A stretch of 64,000 nucleotides of DNA from Luteolibacter rhizosphaerae. Lineage in GTDB: Bacteria > Verrucomicrobiota > Verrucomicrobiia > Verrucomicrobiales > Akkermansiaceae. The position numbers were made by a program, and so were the translations under genes. Position 1 is the stretch's first letter. Every line of letters begins with the position of its first letter. The stretch lies in the NCBI RefSeq assembly GCF_025950095.1, contig NZ_JAPDDR010000003.1, forward strand, positions 124,001 through 188,000. Reading direction: 5' to 3'. Shown piece by piece: positions 21,111-28,738 of the stretch. The notes beneath the pieces are model-generated. The model did no database searches. It was not told where the DNA came from and saw only the letters and a list, made by a program, of their open reading frames with translations.

Positions 21111-23183
21111 ATGAACCTGTCCATCCCACCACTTCTGGCAGCCCTTGAGCCCGCCATCATTGCATTGATGCTCGGCGGAGTTGTCGCCGTCGTCGTTGGC
21201 GGCGGCGTGCTGTTCTCGATGTTCTATCGCAAGGCCCAACGCGGTCAGGCGCTGATCAAGACCGGCTTCCGCGGCACCAAGGTTTCATTCAACGGCTTCA
21301 CGGTGGTTCCCGTGCTGGAACGGCTGGAGACGATGGACATTTCGCTGAAGCGCGTGGAGATCGACCGTACCGCGAAGAACGGGCTGATCTGTAAGGACAA
21401 CATGCGCGCGGACATCAAGGTGGCCTTCTTCGTGCGGGTGAACCAGACGGACGAGGACGTGCTGCGCGTGGCGCAGTCGGTGGGTTGCGATCGCGCCTCG
21501 AACACGGATGAAATCCGCTCGCTCTTCGACGCGAAATTCTCCGAAGCACTCAAGACCGTAGGCAAGCGCTTCGACTTCACGGAGCTGTATGAAGAGCGCG
21601 AGACCTTCCGCGACGAGATCATCAAGATCATCGGCACCAACCTGAACGGCTTCGTGCTGGATGACGCGGCGATCGACTATCTGGAGCAGACGCCGATCGA
21701 GGCGCTGGATCCGGACAACATTCTGGACGCCGAGGGTATCAAGAAGATCACCGAGTTGACCGCTGCACAGGCGAAGCTCGCGAACCACATCCAGCGCGAC
21801 AAGGAGAAGGTCATCAAGCAGCAGGACGTGGAGGCGCGTGAGGCAATCCTGGAGCTGGAGCGCCAGCTTTCCGAAACCGAGGCCAAGCAGAAGCGCGAGG
21901 TCGAGAGCGTGCGTGCCCGCGAGGAAGCGGAGACGCAGAAGGTGCGCGAGGAGGAGCGCCAGAAAGCCGAGCGCGCACGCATCGCCGCGCAGGAAGAGAT
22001 CGACGTCGCGACCCAGAACAAGGATCGCCAGGTGCTCGTGGCGCAGCGCAACAAGGAGCGCACCGACGTGGTGGAAGTGGAGCGCGTGAAGCGCGACCAG
22101 GAACTCGAATCGATCGAGCGCGAGCGGGTGACCCAGCTCAAGGCGATCGAGAAGGAGAAGGCCGTGGAAGTGGAGAAGAAGCTCATCCAGGACGTGATCA
22201 AGGAACGCGTGGCGGTCGAGAAGCTGGTGGTGATCGAACAGGAGCGGATCAAGGACACCGAGGCTTTCGCCGGTGCGGATCGCCAGAAGCAAGTCAAGGT
22301 GACCCTGGCGGAGGCGGCGGCACAGGAAGATGTGATCCACAAGATCAAGGAGGCCGAGGCTGCCCAGGAGGCTGCAAAGCTGCGCGCCGATCAGGAGCTC
22401 TACGAGCGCGTGAAGGCTGCCGAGGCTTCGAAGAAGTCCGCCGAGCTCAAGGCCGAGGAAGTCGTGATCTCCGCGGAAGCCGAACAGGCTGCCAGCGAGA
22501 AGCAAGCGCTCGCCAAGAAGGTGCTGGCGGAAGCTACCGCGAAGGAAGCCGCTGCCTCCGGACTCGGCGAGGTGGAGGTGCTGCTCGCCAAGGCAGATGC
22601 CACCCAGAAGCAAGGCACGGCCGACGCCGAAGTGAACCGTCTCAAGTTCGAAGCGGAAGCGGAAGGCATCAACAAGAAGGCCGAGGCGATGAAGCTGCTG
22701 GAATCCGCAGGTCAGTCGCACGAGGAGTTCAAGCTCCGCCTGGAGAAGGAGAAGGCCGTGGACCTCGCGGGCATCAACATCCAGAAGGATATCGCCGAGG
22801 CTCAGGCCAAGGTGATGGGCGAAGCCATGAAGTCGGCGAAGATCGAGATCATCGGCGGCGAAGGGAAGTTCTTCGACCAAATCGCGGGAGCCATCTCGCG
22901 CGGCAAGTCGGTGGACCGCATGGTGGAGAACAGTGCTGTGCTGGCCGATGTGAAGGACACCTTCTTCAATGGCGATCCGGAATACTTCAAGGCCCAGCTG
23001 CGCGAATGGGCGGGGCAGTTCGGAGTGACCACGGAGGATGTGAAGAACCTCAGCGTGGGCGCGATCCTCGGGAAGCTGCTGGTCGATGCCACCGGCGAAG
23101 ACCGGCGCAAGCTGCTGTCCTTCCTCGGCACCGCCGACCGCTTCGGCCTGGCCGATGAAAAGGCCGCGAAGGTCCTGCGCTAA
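21111..23183 (+). CDS. YqiK-like flotillin (SPFH/band 7 protein)
   Basis: The 690-residue protein is anchored by an N-terminal helix (about 13-40, LMLGGVVAVVVGGGVLF). An SPFH/band-7 domain follows (about 45-230; KTGFRGTKVSFNGFTVVPVLERLETMD and the tract ending TNLNGFVLDDAAIDYLEQTP). A long charged coiled coil rich in Glu, Lys and Ala spans about 225-560. The conserved tail (about 570-690) contains KSAKIEIIGGEGKFFDQIAGAI. Flotillins oligomerise and organise membrane microdomains. It forms an operon with the YqiJ-like gene before it. The next operon member, a giant ATPase, is separated from it only by an inverted-repeat unit carrying a GxxExxY gene. Confidence 0.88.
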   Translation: MNLSIPPLLAALEPAIIALMLGGVVAVVVGGGVLFSMFYRKAQRGQALIKTGFRGTKVSFNGFTVVPVLERLETMDISLKRVEIDRTAKNGLICKDNMRADIKVAFFVRVNQTDEDVLRVAQSVGCDRASNTDEIRSLFDAKFSEALKTVGKRFDFTELYEERETFRDEIIKIIGTNLNGFVLDDAAIDYLEQTPIEALDPDNILDAEGIKKITELTAAQAKLANHIQRDKEKVIKQQDVEAREAILELERQLSETEAKQKREVESVRAREEAETQKVREEERQKAERARIAAQEEIDVATQNKDRQVLVAQRNKERTDVVEVERVKRDQELESIERERVTQLKAIEKEKAVEVEKKLIQDVIKERVAVEKLVVIEQERIKDTEAFAGADRQKQVKVTLAEAAAQEDVIHKIKEAEAAQEAAKLRADQELYERVKAAEASKKSAELKAEEVVISAEAEQAASEKQALAKKVLAEATAKEAAASGLGEVEVLLAKADATQKQGTADAEVNRLKFEAEAEGINKKAEAMKLLESAGQSHEEFKLRLEKEKAVDLAGINIQKDIAEAQAKVMGEAMKSAKIEIIGGEGKFFDQIAGAISRGKSVDRMVENSAVLADVKDTFFNGDPEYFKAQLREWAGQFGVTTEDVKNLSVGAILGKLLVDATGEDRRKLLSFLGTADRFGLADEKAAKVLR

Positions 23184-23190
23184 GCAAGCC

Positions 23191-23641
23191 AAACCACGGA
23201 ATACACGGAACACACGGAAAGGACTTTCTTATGGCACTGATTCTTGAATCGGAGACTCACGCGATTCTTGGAGCATGCTTTGAAGTCTACCGCGACAAAG
23301 GCTGTGGATTCCTAGAGGACGTTTATCAGGAATGCCTCGAACTCGAACTTGCTGATCGAGGCATTCCTTTTGTCCCGCGCCTCCCGCTGCAACTCGAATA
23401 CAAAGGAAGGATCCTGCGGAAACGCTACGAGCCCGACTTCATCTGTTTCGACGAAGTGATCGTGGAGATCAAGGCGTGCAAGCATATCGAGGATTCTCAT
23501 CGGGCCCAGCTCATGAACTACCTCAAGGCCACCCGGAAGCGGGTGGGTTTACTGATCAATTTTGGACACTATCCGAAAGCCCAACACGAGCGATTCGCAC
23601 TCTGATTACTTCTTCCGCGTGTTCCGTGTATTCCGTGGTTT
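23191..23641. repeat. 451-bp unit bounded by 29-bp inverted repeats, carrying a GxxExxY gene
   Basis: Bases 23191-23219 and 23613-23641 are inverted copies matching at 28 of 29 positions. Each arm contains three copies of a CACGGAA-like core. The left arm begins 8 bp after the flotillin stop codon and the right arm ends 15 bp before the ATPase start codon, so the unit fits exactly into the intergenic gap. It holds one small gene (23231-23605). No target-site duplication is evident beside the arms. The arrangement suggests a mobile or formerly mobile cassette, but transposition is an inference; no transposase is encoded. Confidence 0.75.
23231..23605 (+). CDS. GxxExxY-family protein (PD-(D/E)XK nuclease-like)
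   Basis: This 124-residue protein carries the family signature GFLEDVY (Gly26, Glu29, Tyr32). A downstream core resembles a PD-(D/E)XK nuclease fold: YEPDFICFDEVIVEIKACK, with an Asp then Glu-x-Lys on adjacent strands. The family is common in several bacterial phyla, often as multiple paralogues, and its function has not been established as far as I know. GGAAAGGA at the inner edge of the left repeat (about 23216-23223) serves as ribosome binding site for the ATG at 23231. It is flanked by 29-bp inverted repeats and interrupts the flotillin/ATPase operon in the same orientation, so transcription could read through. Confidence 0.8.
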   Translation: MALILESETHAILGACFEVYRDKGCGFLEDVYQECLELELADRGIPFVPRLPLQLEYKGRILRKRYEPDFICFDEVIVEIKACKHIEDSHRAQLMNYLKATRKRVGLLINFGHYPKAQHERFAL

Positions 23642-23656: not shown

Positions 23657-26600
23657 ATGCCTGAAGAACCCCAAAAGCCCGACCAGCTCGAAGGCGGTGC
23701 GTATGAAGTCATCCGCGCCCGCCTGGACAAGCATGCTGCCACGCTGCGGACGGGACTCGATGCGCTGAATGCGGAACGCCTGCAGGTCTTCGGCGGTGTC
23801 GAGACGGCGCTGCTGGGTACCGAGCGCGTACCGACGGAGCACAACTGCATCGCCCGCGACTTGGTGGCGATCGGCAAGCAGCGCTTCCTCTTCGGCTACA
23901 ACATCCAGTTCGGACTGAAGCAGACGACGGACACGAAGGACGTCTTCGCCGCGTACGATTTCAATCCGGAGACGCGCTCGTTCACGCAGGTGGCGGTGGA
24001 GGGGGTGCTGGGCGATCCGAAGTTCACGGAGGACTTCGCTTACCTCTTCAAGTATTACCGCGAGGCGGTCTTCCTGAAGTTTATGGTCATCGGGCCGCAC
24101 TTGTATCTGGTGATGCGGGCCGGCAAGACGGTGGATGACATCAAGGCCTTCAAGTGGCGCTTCGCCAGCAACGGCACCCTGGAGTATGTCGGCAACCGCT
24201 TCGACCACGAATGCGTGTTCCCGGCGCAGCAGGAGTTCCAGTGGAAGCGCGCTCACCGCGGCATGCATCGCTCCGGCGAGCATCCCCACATCTCGATCGA
24301 GGATCGTGTCTTCGTGGAGACGGTGGGTGGAGACCTGACCGTGAAGGTCGAGGACAACACGGCCAGCGGCCAAGGCATCTACTCGGAGCCGGTCACGGAG
24401 AGCGACCAAACGCTGGACGATGCGGAGATCTTCTACGCCACGGTCGGCTCGCTGATCCTGCTGAAGATCTTACCCTACCGCGAGTCGATGCACCGCCATC
24501 TCGTCTACAACGAGAAGACGAAGACGGTGCACCGCATCGACACGATCGGGGACTCCTGCGTGCTGCTACCGGATGATCACGGCATCATCTTCGCGAACGG
24601 CTACCTGCTGCAGAGTGGCGAGGTGAAGACCTTCGACCACGGCATGCTGGACATGCGCTTCGAGCGCAAGGTGGCGAGCGCGAACGGCGAGGACATCCTC
24701 TACTCCTTCTACAACCGCGCGGCGGGCGACTACGTGCTGCTCTCCTACAACCGGATCAAACAATCGGTGGAGACGCCGATCGTGTGCTCCGGTTACTCGC
24801 TCTTCGGCAACGGACAATTGGTGCTCTTCCGCGCCGATGGCCAGCCGCAGAAGCACCACGTCCTGCAAGTATGGCAAACGCCGTACTTGGACGACGAGAC
24901 CAGCGCGGCCGCAGCCGCCGACAAGGAGTCCTTCCTCTACAAGATCGGCAATCCGGAACTGGTCCGCGGGATGGCGGAGTCGCGCGAGCTACTCACGCTG
25001 CTCCAGAAGGACGACTCCTTCGCCGGGCTTTACCTCGATATCGTCAAGCGCTCGGGCGACCTGCTTGATGCCTACTTCTGGCTCGATCGCAAGGAGTGCC
25101 AAGCGCTGGCCGAACCGGTCCGCGAGATCAAGAAGGCGGGTGAAGCGGCGATCGGTGAGTTCGACAAGGTCCAGAAGCTCCGCACGGTCGCCGCCGAGCG
25201 GACGGCCGTGGTCCGCACCGCGATGGAGAAGCTGGTGCGCGATGCGAAGAACTCGCCTCCGGACGCGCTGCAAGGTTTCGTCCACCAACTGGCGGGTCTG
25301 CGGAAGCTGCGGGGCGAGATCATCTCGCTGCGCGACGTCCGCTATACCGAGACGGAAACCATCGCTGCCTTCGAGAAGGAAGTGGTGGAGACCACGGATG
25401 CGGTTTCGGCACGCACGGTGGAATTCCTGTTAGGTGAGGAATCGCTGAAGTCCTACGCCGCGGCGATCGACACGCAGGAGGCCGCTCTCGCGAAGATCGC
25501 CAAGGTCACGGAAGCGGATGAAGTCGCGACCGCGCTCGACCAAGCCGCCGCCGAACTGGAGATGCTGATCGAGATTGTCGGCGGCCTGAAGATCGCCGAT
25601 GCGACGCAGACCACGGCGATCATCGAGCGCATCTCCGCACTCTATGCGCGACTGAACGGCACGCGCGGATCGCTGCGCAACAAGCGCAAGGAGCTCGCAC
25701 GCGGTGAAGGCGAGGCGCAGTTCGCGGCGCAGATGAAGCTGCTTTCGCAGGCGCTGGCGAACTACCTCGATCTATGCGACACGCCGGAGAAGTGCGACGA
25801 GTCCCTCACACGCCTGATGGTGCAGGTGGAGGAGCTCGAAGGCCGCTTCGCGGAGTTCGACGAGTACATCGAACAGATCGCGACGCGACGCGAGGAGATC
25901 TACGACGCCTTCGAAGGACGGCGCACGCAACTGGTGGAAGCGCGCGGCAAGCGGGCGGGTGCGCTCTTCAAGTCCGCCGAGCGGATCCTGGCCGGCATCC
26001 GCAACCGGGTGTCATCCTTCGGCGAGGTCGAGGAGATCCACTCCTACTTCGCGACCGATCCGATGATCGAAAAGGTCCGCGACCTGATCGGCCAGCTGCA
26101 GGCGCTGGGTGATTCGGTAAAGGCGGACGATCTCCAGACCCGCCTCAAGACGCTGCGCGAGGACGGCGTTCGCCAGCTCAAGGACAAGAAAGATCTCTTC
26201 GTGGATGGCCAGAACGTCATCCGCTTCGGCAAGCACGCCTTCAACGTGAACACCCAGCCGCTGGAGATGACCATCGTGCCGCATGAGGATGCGATGGCCT
26301 TCCACCTGACGGGTACCAAATTCTTCGAGCCGATCGGCGATCCGGAGTTCCTCGCTGCGCGCGAGGCATGGGACCTGGAGGTGCCGAGCGAGAGCCCGCG
26401 GGTCGCGCGGGCCGAGTATCTTGCCTGGCGGTTCCTGATGGAGGGCAAGGCCGAGGGCGAATTGCTTCCCGCGGTCCAAGCCTTCATGCAGCCGCGCTAT
26501 GCTGAGGGATACACCAAGGGCATCCACGACGAGGATGCCGCGAAGATCCTAGGCCAGCTCTTGCCGATCCACGCCGAGGCCGGACTGCTTCGTTTCGCAC

Positions 26601-28738
26601 CGCGCGAGCGCGCTGCCGCGATTCTTTTCTGGGAGTCTTGGGATGATCCGGCGAAATCACGCCTCGCCGGGCAGTTCGCTTCCTACGGCAAGCGCCGTAG
26701 CTTGTTCGCGGGCGGCGACGAAACCGAACGCTGGAAAGCCCGTTTGGCGGAAGCCTTCACGAAATGGCGCGCCGACTACGGCCTGTTCACGGAAGTGGAT
26801 GCCGCAAAGGTCGCAAGCTACTTGGAAGAGGAACTCGCGGCCGGCGGAGGCTTCCTCGTCTCTGCTTCCGCAGCGGAACTATCGAAGTCCTTCCACCAAG
26901 GCCTGGTGGCGAAGAGAGCGGACTCCATCTTCAAAGATTCACTCGGCGGCGAAGAGAGCCCGATCCCGCTCAAGTATGAGATCGCCCGTGACTGGCTCGC
27001 CGGTTTCGCGGCCTCCTACCCGGAGAGCCTGCAAGGGAGCCCGGCGGATCTCGCGGATGCGGTGATCGATGAGGCGGCAGTCCACATCGCGCGCGGCGGT
27101 TACGAGCAGCGCGCGGTGAAGACGGTTCCGCTGTCCTTCACCGTCGACGGTCTTCGCTCCAGCCACGCACGGGTGCAGAATGGTAGCCTGGAGATTCACT
27201 ACAGCGAGTTCCTCGACCGGCTGGAGCGCCATGAGCGGACGGACGCCGCGGCCTTCCGATCCCTCGCCGAGCGCAAGACCAAGCTGACCGGCACCAAGCG
27301 TGCGGAGATGCGTCTCGAAGAGTTCAAAGCGAAGGTGATGAGCGCCTTCGTGCGCAATCGCTTGATCGACGAAGTCTACCTGCCCCTGATCGGCAACAAC
27401 CTGGCCAAGCAGCTCGGCACGGCGGGTGCGAACACGCGCACCGACCGCATGGGCCTGCTGCTGCTGATCTCTCCCCCCGGCTATGGCAAGACGACGATCA
27501 TGGAGTATGTGGCCAACCGCTTGGGCCTGACCTTCGTGAAGATCAACGGTCCGGCGCTCGGTCACCGCGTCCTCTCGCTCGATCCCGCCGAAGCCCCGAA
27601 CGCCTCCGCCCGCATGGAGGTGGAGCGTGCGAACCTCGCACTGGAGATGGGCGACAACGTGATGCTCTATCTGGACGACATCCAGCACACGGATCCGGAG
27701 TTCCTGCAAATGTTCATCAGCCTCTGCGACGCGCAGCGGAAGATCGAGGGCGTTTGGAAAGGCCAGCCGAAGACCTATGACCTGCGTGGCCGGAAGGTCG
27801 CGGTGGTCATGGCGGGCAACCCCTACACGGAAAGCGGCGGCAAGTTCCAGATCCCGGACATGCTCGCGAACCGCGCCGATACCTACAACCTCGGCGACAT
27901 CCTGGGCGGACATGAGGCGGCTTTCAAAGCGAGCTACATCGAGAACGCGCTGACCTCGAATGCCGCACTCTCCCGGCTGGCCAGCCGCTCGCAGAAGGAC
28001 GTGCTCACGCTCATCCGCATCGCCGAGACCGGCAGCCGCGACGGCGCCGACTTCGAGGGCAATTACACGCCCGCGGAGATCGAGGAGATGCTTGCGGTGA
28101 CCAAGCACTTGCTCGCCGTGCGCGACACGATCCTGCGCGTGAACCTCCAGTACATCGCGAGCGCGGCCCAGGAGGATGCCTACCGCACCGAGCCCTCCTT
28201 CAAGCTGCAAGGATCCTACCGCAACATGAACCGGATCGCCGAGAAGGTGCTGCCGCTCATGACGCCGGAGGAAGTGCGACAAATCATCGTCGATCACTAC
28301 CGCAGCGAGTCACAGAACCTCACCACCGCGGCGGAAGCGAACCTGCTGAAGTTCTACGAAATGGAAAAGCTCCTCGACGAAGCCCAGGCCGCGCGCTGGG
28401 AGGCGATCAAGAAGGAGTTCAACAAGCGCAAGCTGATGGGCGCCGGCGGCGACAGCGATCCGGTGGGCCGCGTGGTCGCGCAGCTCACGCAGTTCAACGA
28501 CGGGCTGGAGGCGATCAAGGAGGGCATCTCCTCGGCAGGCCGCAACTACTCGCAGCCGCAGTCGCTGGCCGAGCAAACGGTCTCGCAGCTCCGCCAGATC
28601 ATCGAGGGCCTGCGCGCCGTGCCGGTGCAGGTCGACATCAAGGTAGTGCCGGTGCAGGACGACAAGGGCAGCATCGAGAAGATCGACGCTCCGGACAAAC
28701 CACCTCTGGCCTTCCAGCCGGATGTGAAGCAGGGCTAG
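23657..28738 (+). CDS. Giant flotillin-associated AAA ATPase ('DNA repair ATPase' family)
   Basis: The 1693-residue cytoplasmic protein has three parts. Residues 1-430 are a strand-rich, propeller-like N-terminal region (LVAIGKQRFLFGYNIQFGLK; FYATVGSLILLKILPYRES). Residues about 480-870 are helical and coiled-coil-rich. An AAA ATPase domain lies at about 1230-1560: Walker A SPPGYGKTT at 1272-1280, Walker B VMLYLDD at 1335-1341, and a sensor-like VVMAGNPYTESGGKF. Similar proteins are often labelled DNA repair ATPase, but I know of no direct demonstration. Conserved co-location with YqiJ- and YqiK-like proteins points instead to a membrane-associated assembly remodelled by ATP hydrolysis. No transmembrane helix is seen. 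The C-terminal 150 residues contain another coiled coil. Confidence 0.8.
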   Translation: MPEEPQKPDQLEGGAYEVIRARLDKHAATLRTGLDALNAERLQVFGGVETALLGTERVPTEHNCIARDLVAIGKQRFLFGYNIQFGLKQTTDTKDVFAAYDFNPETRSFTQVAVEGVLGDPKFTEDFAYLFKYYREAVFLKFMVIGPHLYLVMRAGKTVDDIKAFKWRFASNGTLEYVGNRFDHECVFPAQQEFQWKRAHRGMHRSGEHPHISIEDRVFVETVGGDLTVKVEDNTASGQGIYSEPVTESDQTLDDAEIFYATVGSLILLKILPYRESMHRHLVYNEKTKTVHRIDTIGDSCVLLPDDHGIIFANGYLLQSGEVKTFDHGMLDMRFERKVASANGEDILYSFYNRAAGDYVLLSYNRIKQSVETPIVCSGYSLFGNGQLVLFRADGQPQKHHVLQVWQTPYLDDETSAAAAADKESFLYKIGNPELVRGMAESRELLTLLQKDDSFAGLYLDIVKRSGDLLDAYFWLDRKECQALAEPVREIKKAGEAAIGEFDKVQKLRTVAAERTAVVRTAMEKLVRDAKNSPPDALQGFVHQLAGLRKLRGEIISLRDVRYTETETIAAFEKEVVETTDAVSARTVEFLLGEESLKSYAAAIDTQEAALAKIAKVTEADEVATALDQAAAELEMLIEIVGGLKIADATQTTAIIERISALYARLNGTRGSLRNKRKELARGEGEAQFAAQMKLLSQALANYLDLCDTPEKCDESLTRLMVQVEELEGRFAEFDEYIEQIATRREEIYDAFEGRRTQLVEARGKRAGALFKSAERILAGIRNRVSSFGEVEEIHSYFATDPMIEKVRDLIGQLQALGDSVKADDLQTRLKTLREDGVRQLKDKKDLFVDGQNVIRFGKHAFNVNTQPLEMTIVPHEDAMAFHLTGTKFFEPIGDPEFLAAREAWDLEVPSESPRVARAEYLAWRFLMEGKAEGELLPAVQAFMQPRYAEGYTKGIHDEDAAKILGQLLPIHAEAGLLRFAPRERAAAILFWESWDDPAKSRLAGQFASYGKRRSLFAGGDETERWKARLAEAFTKWRADYGLFTEVDAAKVASYLEEELAAGGGFLVSASAAELSKSFHQGLVAKRADSIFKDSLGGEESPIPLKYEIARDWLAGFAASYPESLQGSPADLADAVIDEAAVHIARGGYEQRAVKTVPLSFTVDGLRSSHARVQNGSLEIHYSEFLDRLERHERTDAAAFRSLAERKTKLTGTKRAEMRLEEFKAKVMSAFVRNRLIDEVYLPLIGNNLAKQLGTAGANTRTDRMGLLLLISPPGYGKTTIMEYVANRLGLTFVKINGPALGHRVLSLDPAEAPNASARMEVERANLALEMGDNVMLYLDDIQHTDPEFLQMFISLCDAQRKIEGVWKGQPKTYDLRGRKVAVVMAGNPYTESGGKFQIPDMLANRADTYNLGDILGGHEAAFKASYIENALTSNAALSRLASRSQKDVLTLIRIAETGSRDGADFEGNYTPAEIEEMLAVTKHLLAVRDTILRVNLQYIASAAQEDAYRTEPSFKLQGSYRNMNRIAEKVLPLMTPEEVRQIIVDHYRSESQNLTTAAEANLLKFYEMEKLLDEAQAARWEAIKKEFNKRKLMGAGGDSDPVGRVVAQLTQFNDGLEAIKEGISSAGRNYSQPQSLAEQTVSQLRQIIEGLRAVPVQVDIKVVPVQDDKGSIEKIDAPDKPPLAFQPDVKQG

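Follow-up and report, generated by a model that had tools for sequence, protein, structure and literature searches.

Between two undamaged host genes of Luteolibacter rhizosphaerae lies a small gene of the GxxExxY family, framed by a pair of inverted repeats. Is this arrangement an ordinary part of an operon or a mobile unit occupying the gap, and if the latter, what carries it there? We addressed this question at positions 23191–23641 of the 64,000-nucleotide stretch under analysis (hereafter the window) and by comparison with related genes in the same genome, in 145 genomes of the host family and across phyla.

Anatomy of the cassette

The cassette extends over 451 bp, and its 29-nt inverted arms, complementary at 28 of 29 positions (23191–23219 versus 23613–23641), enclose an intact GxxExxY gene. 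Its parts and neighbors are as follows.

21111–23183, + strand: upstream host gene, 690 aa; the name "flotillin" is a label from an earlier note on this DNA only
23191–23641, + strand: entire cassette, 451 bp; arms pair around the ORF in the predicted RNA fold
23191–23219, + strand: left arm; AAACC, then CACGGAA heptamers at 23195–23201, 23204–23210 and 23213–23219, period 9 bp
23231–23605, + strand: GxxExxY gene, 124 aa; predicted PD-(D/E)XK nuclease fold; D69, E79 and K81 present
23613–23641, − strand: right arm, an inverted copy of the left arm (28/29); minus-strand heptamers at 23613–23619 (CGCGGAA), 23622–23628 and 23631–23637
23657–28738, + strand: downstream host gene, 1693 aa; DUF3686 ATPase

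Each arm contains three heptamers at a 9-bp period, all CACGGAA except for the single CGCGGAA copy, and a search with the first 17 nt of the arm core (≤3 mismatches) returned three matches in the window, all within the arms, against 0.10 expected. This bears out the 29-bp inverted arms with CACGGAA cores that the earlier note had described around the gene. Both flanking ORFs are oriented like the cassette gene, again as described; the downstream name is corroborated by the DUF3686 assignment, whereas the upstream gene gave no Pfam, NCBIfam or PDB-sequence match at the limits used, and flotillin is retained below as a label without a family match. Folded as RNA, the cassette reaches an MFE of −175.7 versus a shuffled mean of −135.8 (z −6.5), with the arms paired.

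The window protein matches PF13366 (5.5e-41; 140 bits against a cut-off of 22 bits) and TIGR04256 (3e-40; 137.2 bits against a cut-off of 35 bits), and by these profile matches is a clear member of the GxxExxY (TIGR04256)/PDDEXK_3 (PF13366) family. Foldseek comparison of a structure model (pLDDT 95.2) gave as best hit 4ic1, SSO0001 (E 1.5e-4), a Cas4, and also lambda exonuclease (3.1e-3); the predicted core resembles both, in the manner of PD-(D/E)XK enzymes. The catalytic residues E29, D69 and K81 are invariant (102 of 102 GxxExxY proteins), and position 79 holds E in 88 proteins and D in the other 14; the predicted fold and the D...(E/D)xK residues of this superfamily are both present. The protein has no sequence relative in the PDB at E 1, and neither a transposase domain nor an HUH fold was detected by domain search and Foldseek. 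Searches with the window protein, covering one subfamily, gave matches in 8 of 72,556 plasmid records and in 0 of 50,697 phage records; viral contigs yielded 73 arm-pattern stretches, none confirmed. In the open-access literature, the names GxxExxY, PDDEXK_3, PF13366 and TIGR04256 led to no statement on arms or mobility, and searches that also covered arm words, IVS proteins with inverted repeats and REPIN/RAYT led to no earlier description of an armed nuclease cassette; PMC8934634 names GxxExxY only incidentally.

Matched arms around GxxExxY genes

The L. rhizosphaerae genome (6.23 Mb in 31 contigs) contains three GxxExxY genes, all with inverted arms, in three different arm sequences. Besides the window cassette, one lies between two metH ORFs and has CGCAGAG-type rows (39 nt, 85%), and the first metH ORF takes its stop codon from one of the arms; the other, between hisS and aspS, has CGCAGATG-type rows (32 nt, 88%) and a third arm inside. 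TIGR04256 matches occur in 79 of the 145 family genomes (77 above cut-off), spread over 12 of 16 genera. The family set comprised 102 genes from 60 genomes (3 from L. rhizosphaerae, 30 returned by search, 60 picked mostly by score and genus, and 9 from the flotillin junction), and arms were called at an inverted left/right match score of ≥12 within 150 nt. Both flanks were present in 101 genes. Matched arms were found in 82 of the 101, compared with 4 of 384 shifted controls at the same loci and 129 of 2020 pairings of a left flank with another locus's right flank; the other 19 had no arm pair at threshold.

Among the best 80 of 574 confirmed loci from a named genome collection, nearest to one subfamily, arms were present in 60 and no pair reached threshold in 20, versus 2 of 699 shifted controls and 224 of 1600 mismatched pairs; at score 14 the counts were 49 of 80 and 0 of 699. 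The cassette at 23191–23641 is one case of a general rule: matched arms surround most GxxExxY genes tested. The titles of the cross-phyla records, mostly MAGs in which single taxon names may be wrong, include Verrucomicrobia, Bacteroidetes, Planctomycetes, Acidobacteria, Chloroflexi, several proteobacterial groups, Cyanobacteria, Cloacimonadota, Ignavibacteria, Calditrichaceae, Nitrospinae, Myxococcales, Hydrogenedentota, Sumerlaeota and two Methanosarcinales bins. In the last two (L173 and L211), GxxExxY genes with CRCNRAG-type arms lie on contigs filed as archaeal, possibly through a binning error.

Arm sequence follows the protein

The common arm form is ACC followed by three CRCNRAR heptamers at a period of mostly 8–10 (counts 29, 32 and 20); ACAGAATT rows and GGATGGATAGGATGGAT are other forms. 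Over 103 ungapped arm pairs, of which those with at least two heptamers were counted, left and right arms differ in 35 of 1344 cells at fixed heptamer positions (2.6%), compared with 63 of 224 at the free N and 108 of 283 in spacers (28–38%), the unconstrained N position serving as control for heptamers that had been picked by pattern. Because the mismatches fall in spacers and at the free N position, it is the heptamer rather than the stem that is conserved, and the arms fit rows of putative binding sites better than a pairing stem.

The comparison of arm similarity with protein identity covered those 80 cassettes, out of 102 and from 49 genomes, whose arm score was ≥14. Arm similarity stays at 0.25–0.29 below 50% identity and rises to 0.86 above 80%, with a Mantel r of 0.381 over 3116 different-genome pairs, 500 permutations reaching at most 0.098. 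Cassettes within one genome are at background (0.27, n = 44), as against 0.65 for the nearest protein relative in another genome. Arm sequence tracks the protein, not the genome, in support of the earlier note's repeat-bounded unit, with arms tied to the protein encoded between them. The unit had been suspected of being non-autonomous, and may be; the conserved nuclease residues, and data that need no transposase, point rather to self-mobilization.

At loci with both neighbors callable, the gene is co-directional with the two of them in 68 of 85 cases in the family set and 43 of 61 in the cross-phyla set, and opposite to both in one case each; outside the flotillin, metH and hisS–aspS junctions the figures are 35 and 0 of 46, all based on ORFs from a simple script and dependent where one junction recurs. 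Sense orientation and the RNA stem would fit expression from the host transcript, perhaps followed by excision.

Filled and empty junctions

Within the genus, 14 genomes are readable at the flotillin/ATPase junction, where the cassette is present in 10 and absent in 4, the cassette-less gaps measuring 63, 59 and 232 bp, and 407 bp with other sequence inside. Alleles without the cassette, as sought at the suggestion of the earlier note, are therefore present in relatives. Family-wide, 62 of 145 genomes yielded the start of the ATPase gene, and at least 25 of them have, by position, a GxxExxY gene directly upstream. The cassette had been pictured as dropped between the two genes; it does lie there, but a chance drop-in is at odds with related cassettes holding the same place in at least 25 of those 62 genomes.

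The 19 flotillin-site proteins may form one clade (AU 0.607), and their cassettes are possibly one lineage tied to the site. On the cassette-protein tree they require two arm-type changes, the minimum, and each arm type occupies one side of a branch (support 86/89, 95/93 and 97/97). The same 19 labels require seven changes on the host-flank tree (flanking proteins, 37 genomes, 570 columns) against a shuffled mean of 8.8, with values as low in 26 of 200 shuffles and hence no improvement on random labels, arm types having been assigned by eye, the G025 pair being weak and G120 (ACGAAA) counted with CGCGAAA. L. rhizosphaerae and G006 are sisters on that tree (100/98), yet they carry CACGGAA and CGCGAAA cassettes, respectively. 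Four sister groups of the host tree are rejected by AU tests on the cassette data, namely {G000,G006,G071} (P 2.2e-7), {G129,G120,G125} (P 9e-70), {G000,G006} (P 1e-9) and {G058,G087} (P 2.7e-5). The arm-type discordance and the AU rejections together indicate that protein and arms travel as a unit, with repeated entry into the flotillin/ATPase junction. That the cassette moves, protein and arms together, and not the operon, is well supported by these tree comparisons, with recombination through the flanks as a possible vehicle; the discordance could stem from homologous recombination in the conserved flanking sequence or from differential sorting of an old tandem array. Purely vertical inheritance had been considered because other genera also have filled flotillin and metH junctions, as expected of an old resident; the host-flank tree and the AU tests reversed that reading. 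At one flotillin/ATPase locus (L080, G125), a tandem duplication covers the right arm and the beginning of the ATPase gene.

At metH, the 17 genomes compared divide into five with GxxExxY cassettes (two arm types), one with a PF05635 cassette, two with gene-less remnants, three split but empty (gaps of 16, 18 and 68 bp) and six with an uninterrupted frame. G108 holds a clean gene-less doublet whose arms are those of the G056 and G129 cassettes; together, G108 and G120 show how a relic can originate at this site, with the arms kept and the gene lost. In G006, G071 and G101 (L291, L294 and L289), metH forms two ORFs at the cassette site without a cassette, possibly the scar of a lost one. The hisS–aspS junction, also read in 17 genomes, holds GxxExxY cassettes in nine (two arm types; frame decayed in G048) and none in eight (30–143 bp). 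Filled, empty and gene-less (arm doublet) alleles occur at these two junctions, and on the host tree the two arm types need two changes at metH (five genomes) and three at hisS–aspS (7 of the 9 filled genomes included).

Flotillin/ATPase (19), metH (22) or hisS–aspS (5) neighbors flank 46 of the 102 genes, in several genera; L040, at a contig end, has only one side to show. Site labels require 11 changes on a tree of 106 cassette proteins versus 45.4 when shuffled, and a single clade of metH-site proteins is rejected (AU 0.020).

Dispersed arms and gene-less relics

In the L. rhizosphaerae genome, the 15-mer arm core (≤1 mismatch) occurs at 13 places, two of them the cassette's own arms and 11 elsewhere (23 overlapping matches versus 0 for the reversed-pattern control). 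The arm run does recur in the genome, as the earlier note had anticipated, but the 11 dispersed copies are gene-less solo arms and not further cassettes with the same arms. Solo CGCGGAT arms are present as well, yet arms of that type are absent from all three resident cassettes. At three loci (L019, L022 and L023), a CACGGAA arm adjoins a CGCGGAT-type arm in the same orientation. Among the 145 genomes, the three-heptamer pattern was found in 63 of 79 gene-bearing versus 13 of 66 gene-less genomes, 16 gene-bearing genomes being without it (Fisher 2e-13; Spearman 0.67; reversed-pattern control near zero); these counts include the cassettes' own arms, and the statistics ignore kinship. Arms confined to this locus, or a gene always present in relatives with no empty site and unconserved arms, are thus not what we found.

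Elsewhere, intergenic gaps contain series of solo arms of more than one type. In G056:C5 (L283 and L284), nearly all members of such series share one orientation. By replication arm, solo-arm strand bias is strongly one-sided in G056 and in one G009 region and not in G073. A stretch of G009:C2 at ~290–440 kb (L280 and L281) is crowded with arms, mostly on one strand, and with many small ORFs mostly on the other; modular repeats between arms and ORFs give it an integron-like look. Inverted doublets of ~80–130 bp were seen in six congeners, 17 of them in 19 regions chosen for close arms. In G030 (L260, L261, L263, L264, L265, L267 and L268), seven of nine doublets seen share their interior and some outer sequence, and look as if multiplied; the one at L263 has five heptamers in one arm.

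A homing-like reading and its alternatives

We consider it slightly better than an even chance that the cassette is a homing-like, site-preferring selfish nuclease unit with co-evolving iteron arms and REPIN-like relics. There is good support for its existence as a unit and for horizontal spread, whereas the role of the nuclease in driving insertion is inferred. The unit would consist of a small PD-(D/E)XK nuclease gene and two inverted arms of about three 7-bp iterons, and its own protein may recognize these heptamers. It would settle in sense orientation where two co-directional host genes leave a tight gap, and be read from the host transcript. Insertion may be driven by nuclease activity, and spread among related genomes into the same type of gap would be part of a homing-like cycle in which cassettes are gained, decay and are lost. 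By analogy with 23S intervening sequences, the RNA stem might be excised from the operon message. Loss of the gene would leave arm pairs or single arms as REPIN-like relics.

The strongest competitor, which we nevertheless regard as unlikely, makes the cassette a passenger whose alleles are swapped by homologous recombination through conserved flanking genes, with no cassette enzyme active. The flotillin/ATPase flanks are alike between congeners (91% upstream and 85% downstream for L. rhizosphaerae versus G006), and the discordance at this junction requires transfer only, not active insertion. Passive exchange leaves unexplained why matched arms vary between cassettes yet track the protein, why the nuclease residues are strictly conserved, how new positions arise (some species have a split metH, others an unbroken one) and why four-helix and GxxExxY cassettes share one site.

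Ranked below it, and doubtful, is DNA transposition of the REPIN type, with the arms as ends moved widely by the GxxExxY protein or another enzyme and the recurrent junctions as chance survivors. Such movement would accommodate the dispersed single arms and 80–130 bp inverted doublets, the common interior of the G030 doublets and the gene-less metH doublet of G108. Against this stand the strong clustering of sites by clade, the lack of transposase and HUH fold, and the absence of target-site duplication (n = 127, mean match 1.70 versus 1.84 shuffled).

An RNA-level element akin to 23S intervening sequences, in which the arms form a stem cut by RNase III and spread runs through RNA or recombination, seems improbable. 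In size, stem and small ORF the cassette matches the Coxiella IVS as presented in PMC4990558, and its RNA fold and sense orientation agree with such an element. Four-helix-bundle genes (TIGR02436/PF05635) are also found in 111 of the 145 family genomes, with inverted iteron-type arms at 22 of 30 loci (L317–L346) versus 0 of 110 shifted controls, in words that differ from the GxxExxY ones (AGTGGTCAG, AGTTGAGAG, AGTAG); in G048 (L297), the metH site where congeners carry GxxExxY cassettes is taken by a PF05635 (23S_rRNA_IVP) cassette that has inverted arms of its own. What is conserved, by contrast, is not the stem pairing, mismatches being frequent in spacers and at the free position and rare at fixed positions, and the conserved fold is that of a DNA nuclease. 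Finally, we give very little credence to the idea that the gene is an accessory of the flotillin/ATPase operon, passed on vertically and serving the host: related cassettes recur at the junction in several genera, possibly as one clade, but the cassette is absent in 4 of 14 readable congeners, three arm/protein types are scattered across the host tree, 83 of the 102 GxxExxY genes sit elsewhere, and the cassette-versus-host tree results contradict it, short of repeated sorting of an ancient tandem array.

The favored homing-like unit may belong to something wider. Tentatively, and at clearly less than even chances, there may be an unnamed kind of mobile element: iteron-armed one-gene cassettes (GxxExxY or S23p/IVP) with co-evolving arms, present in many bacterial phyla and in archaeal bins, homing into gene junctions and interdomain linkers and seeding arm doublets, with 23S IVS as one branch. 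GxxExxY genes are common paralogues; if the reading is true, they would power a selfish cassette that is widespread, short intergenic repeats of one class would gain an owner across phyla, and joint specificity change of left arm, right arm and nuclease would become testable. It would also offer an origin for 23S rRNA intervening sequences, which PMC4990558 describes as unclear.

Comparison with known mobile elements

The features of DDE insertion sequences are lacking, as no target-site duplication (n = 127) and no transposase domain were found. The 23S IVS with its S23p/IVP protein shares more with the cassette: a length of ~430–450 bp, a ~28-bp terminal inverted repeat, one small ORF read in sense within the transcript, and iteron arms around PF05635 genes (22/30), one at the metH site. 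Unlike an IVS, defined by its insertion in 23S rRNA, the cassette lies between protein-coding genes, its nuclease is unrelated to the four-helix protein, and its stem mismatches are concentrated in spacers. REP/REPIN systems with RAYT (TnpA-REP) are likewise similar in their short extragenic repeats, a cognate gene flanked by repeats, copies dispersed in genomes that carry this gene, and inverted doublets, here 17 in the 19 regions chosen for close arms. REP hairpins carry a GTAG-type tag, whereas the cassette arm is a direct row of heptamers with no such tagged hairpin, and the predicted fold of the cassette protein is PD-(D/E)XK rather than that of the HUH tyrosine transposase RAYT. Homing endonucleases of the PD-(D/E)XK type exist, for example I-Ssp6803I. 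The cassette differs from free-standing homing endonuclease genes in having matched inverted arms of iterons, whose sequence co-varies with that of the protein, and in the dispersed gene-less arms; it resembles them in its small nuclease gene, patchy presence, insertion without target-site duplication, decayed and empty alleles, and repeated horizontal entry into one conserved site, for which recombination is a possible vehicle.
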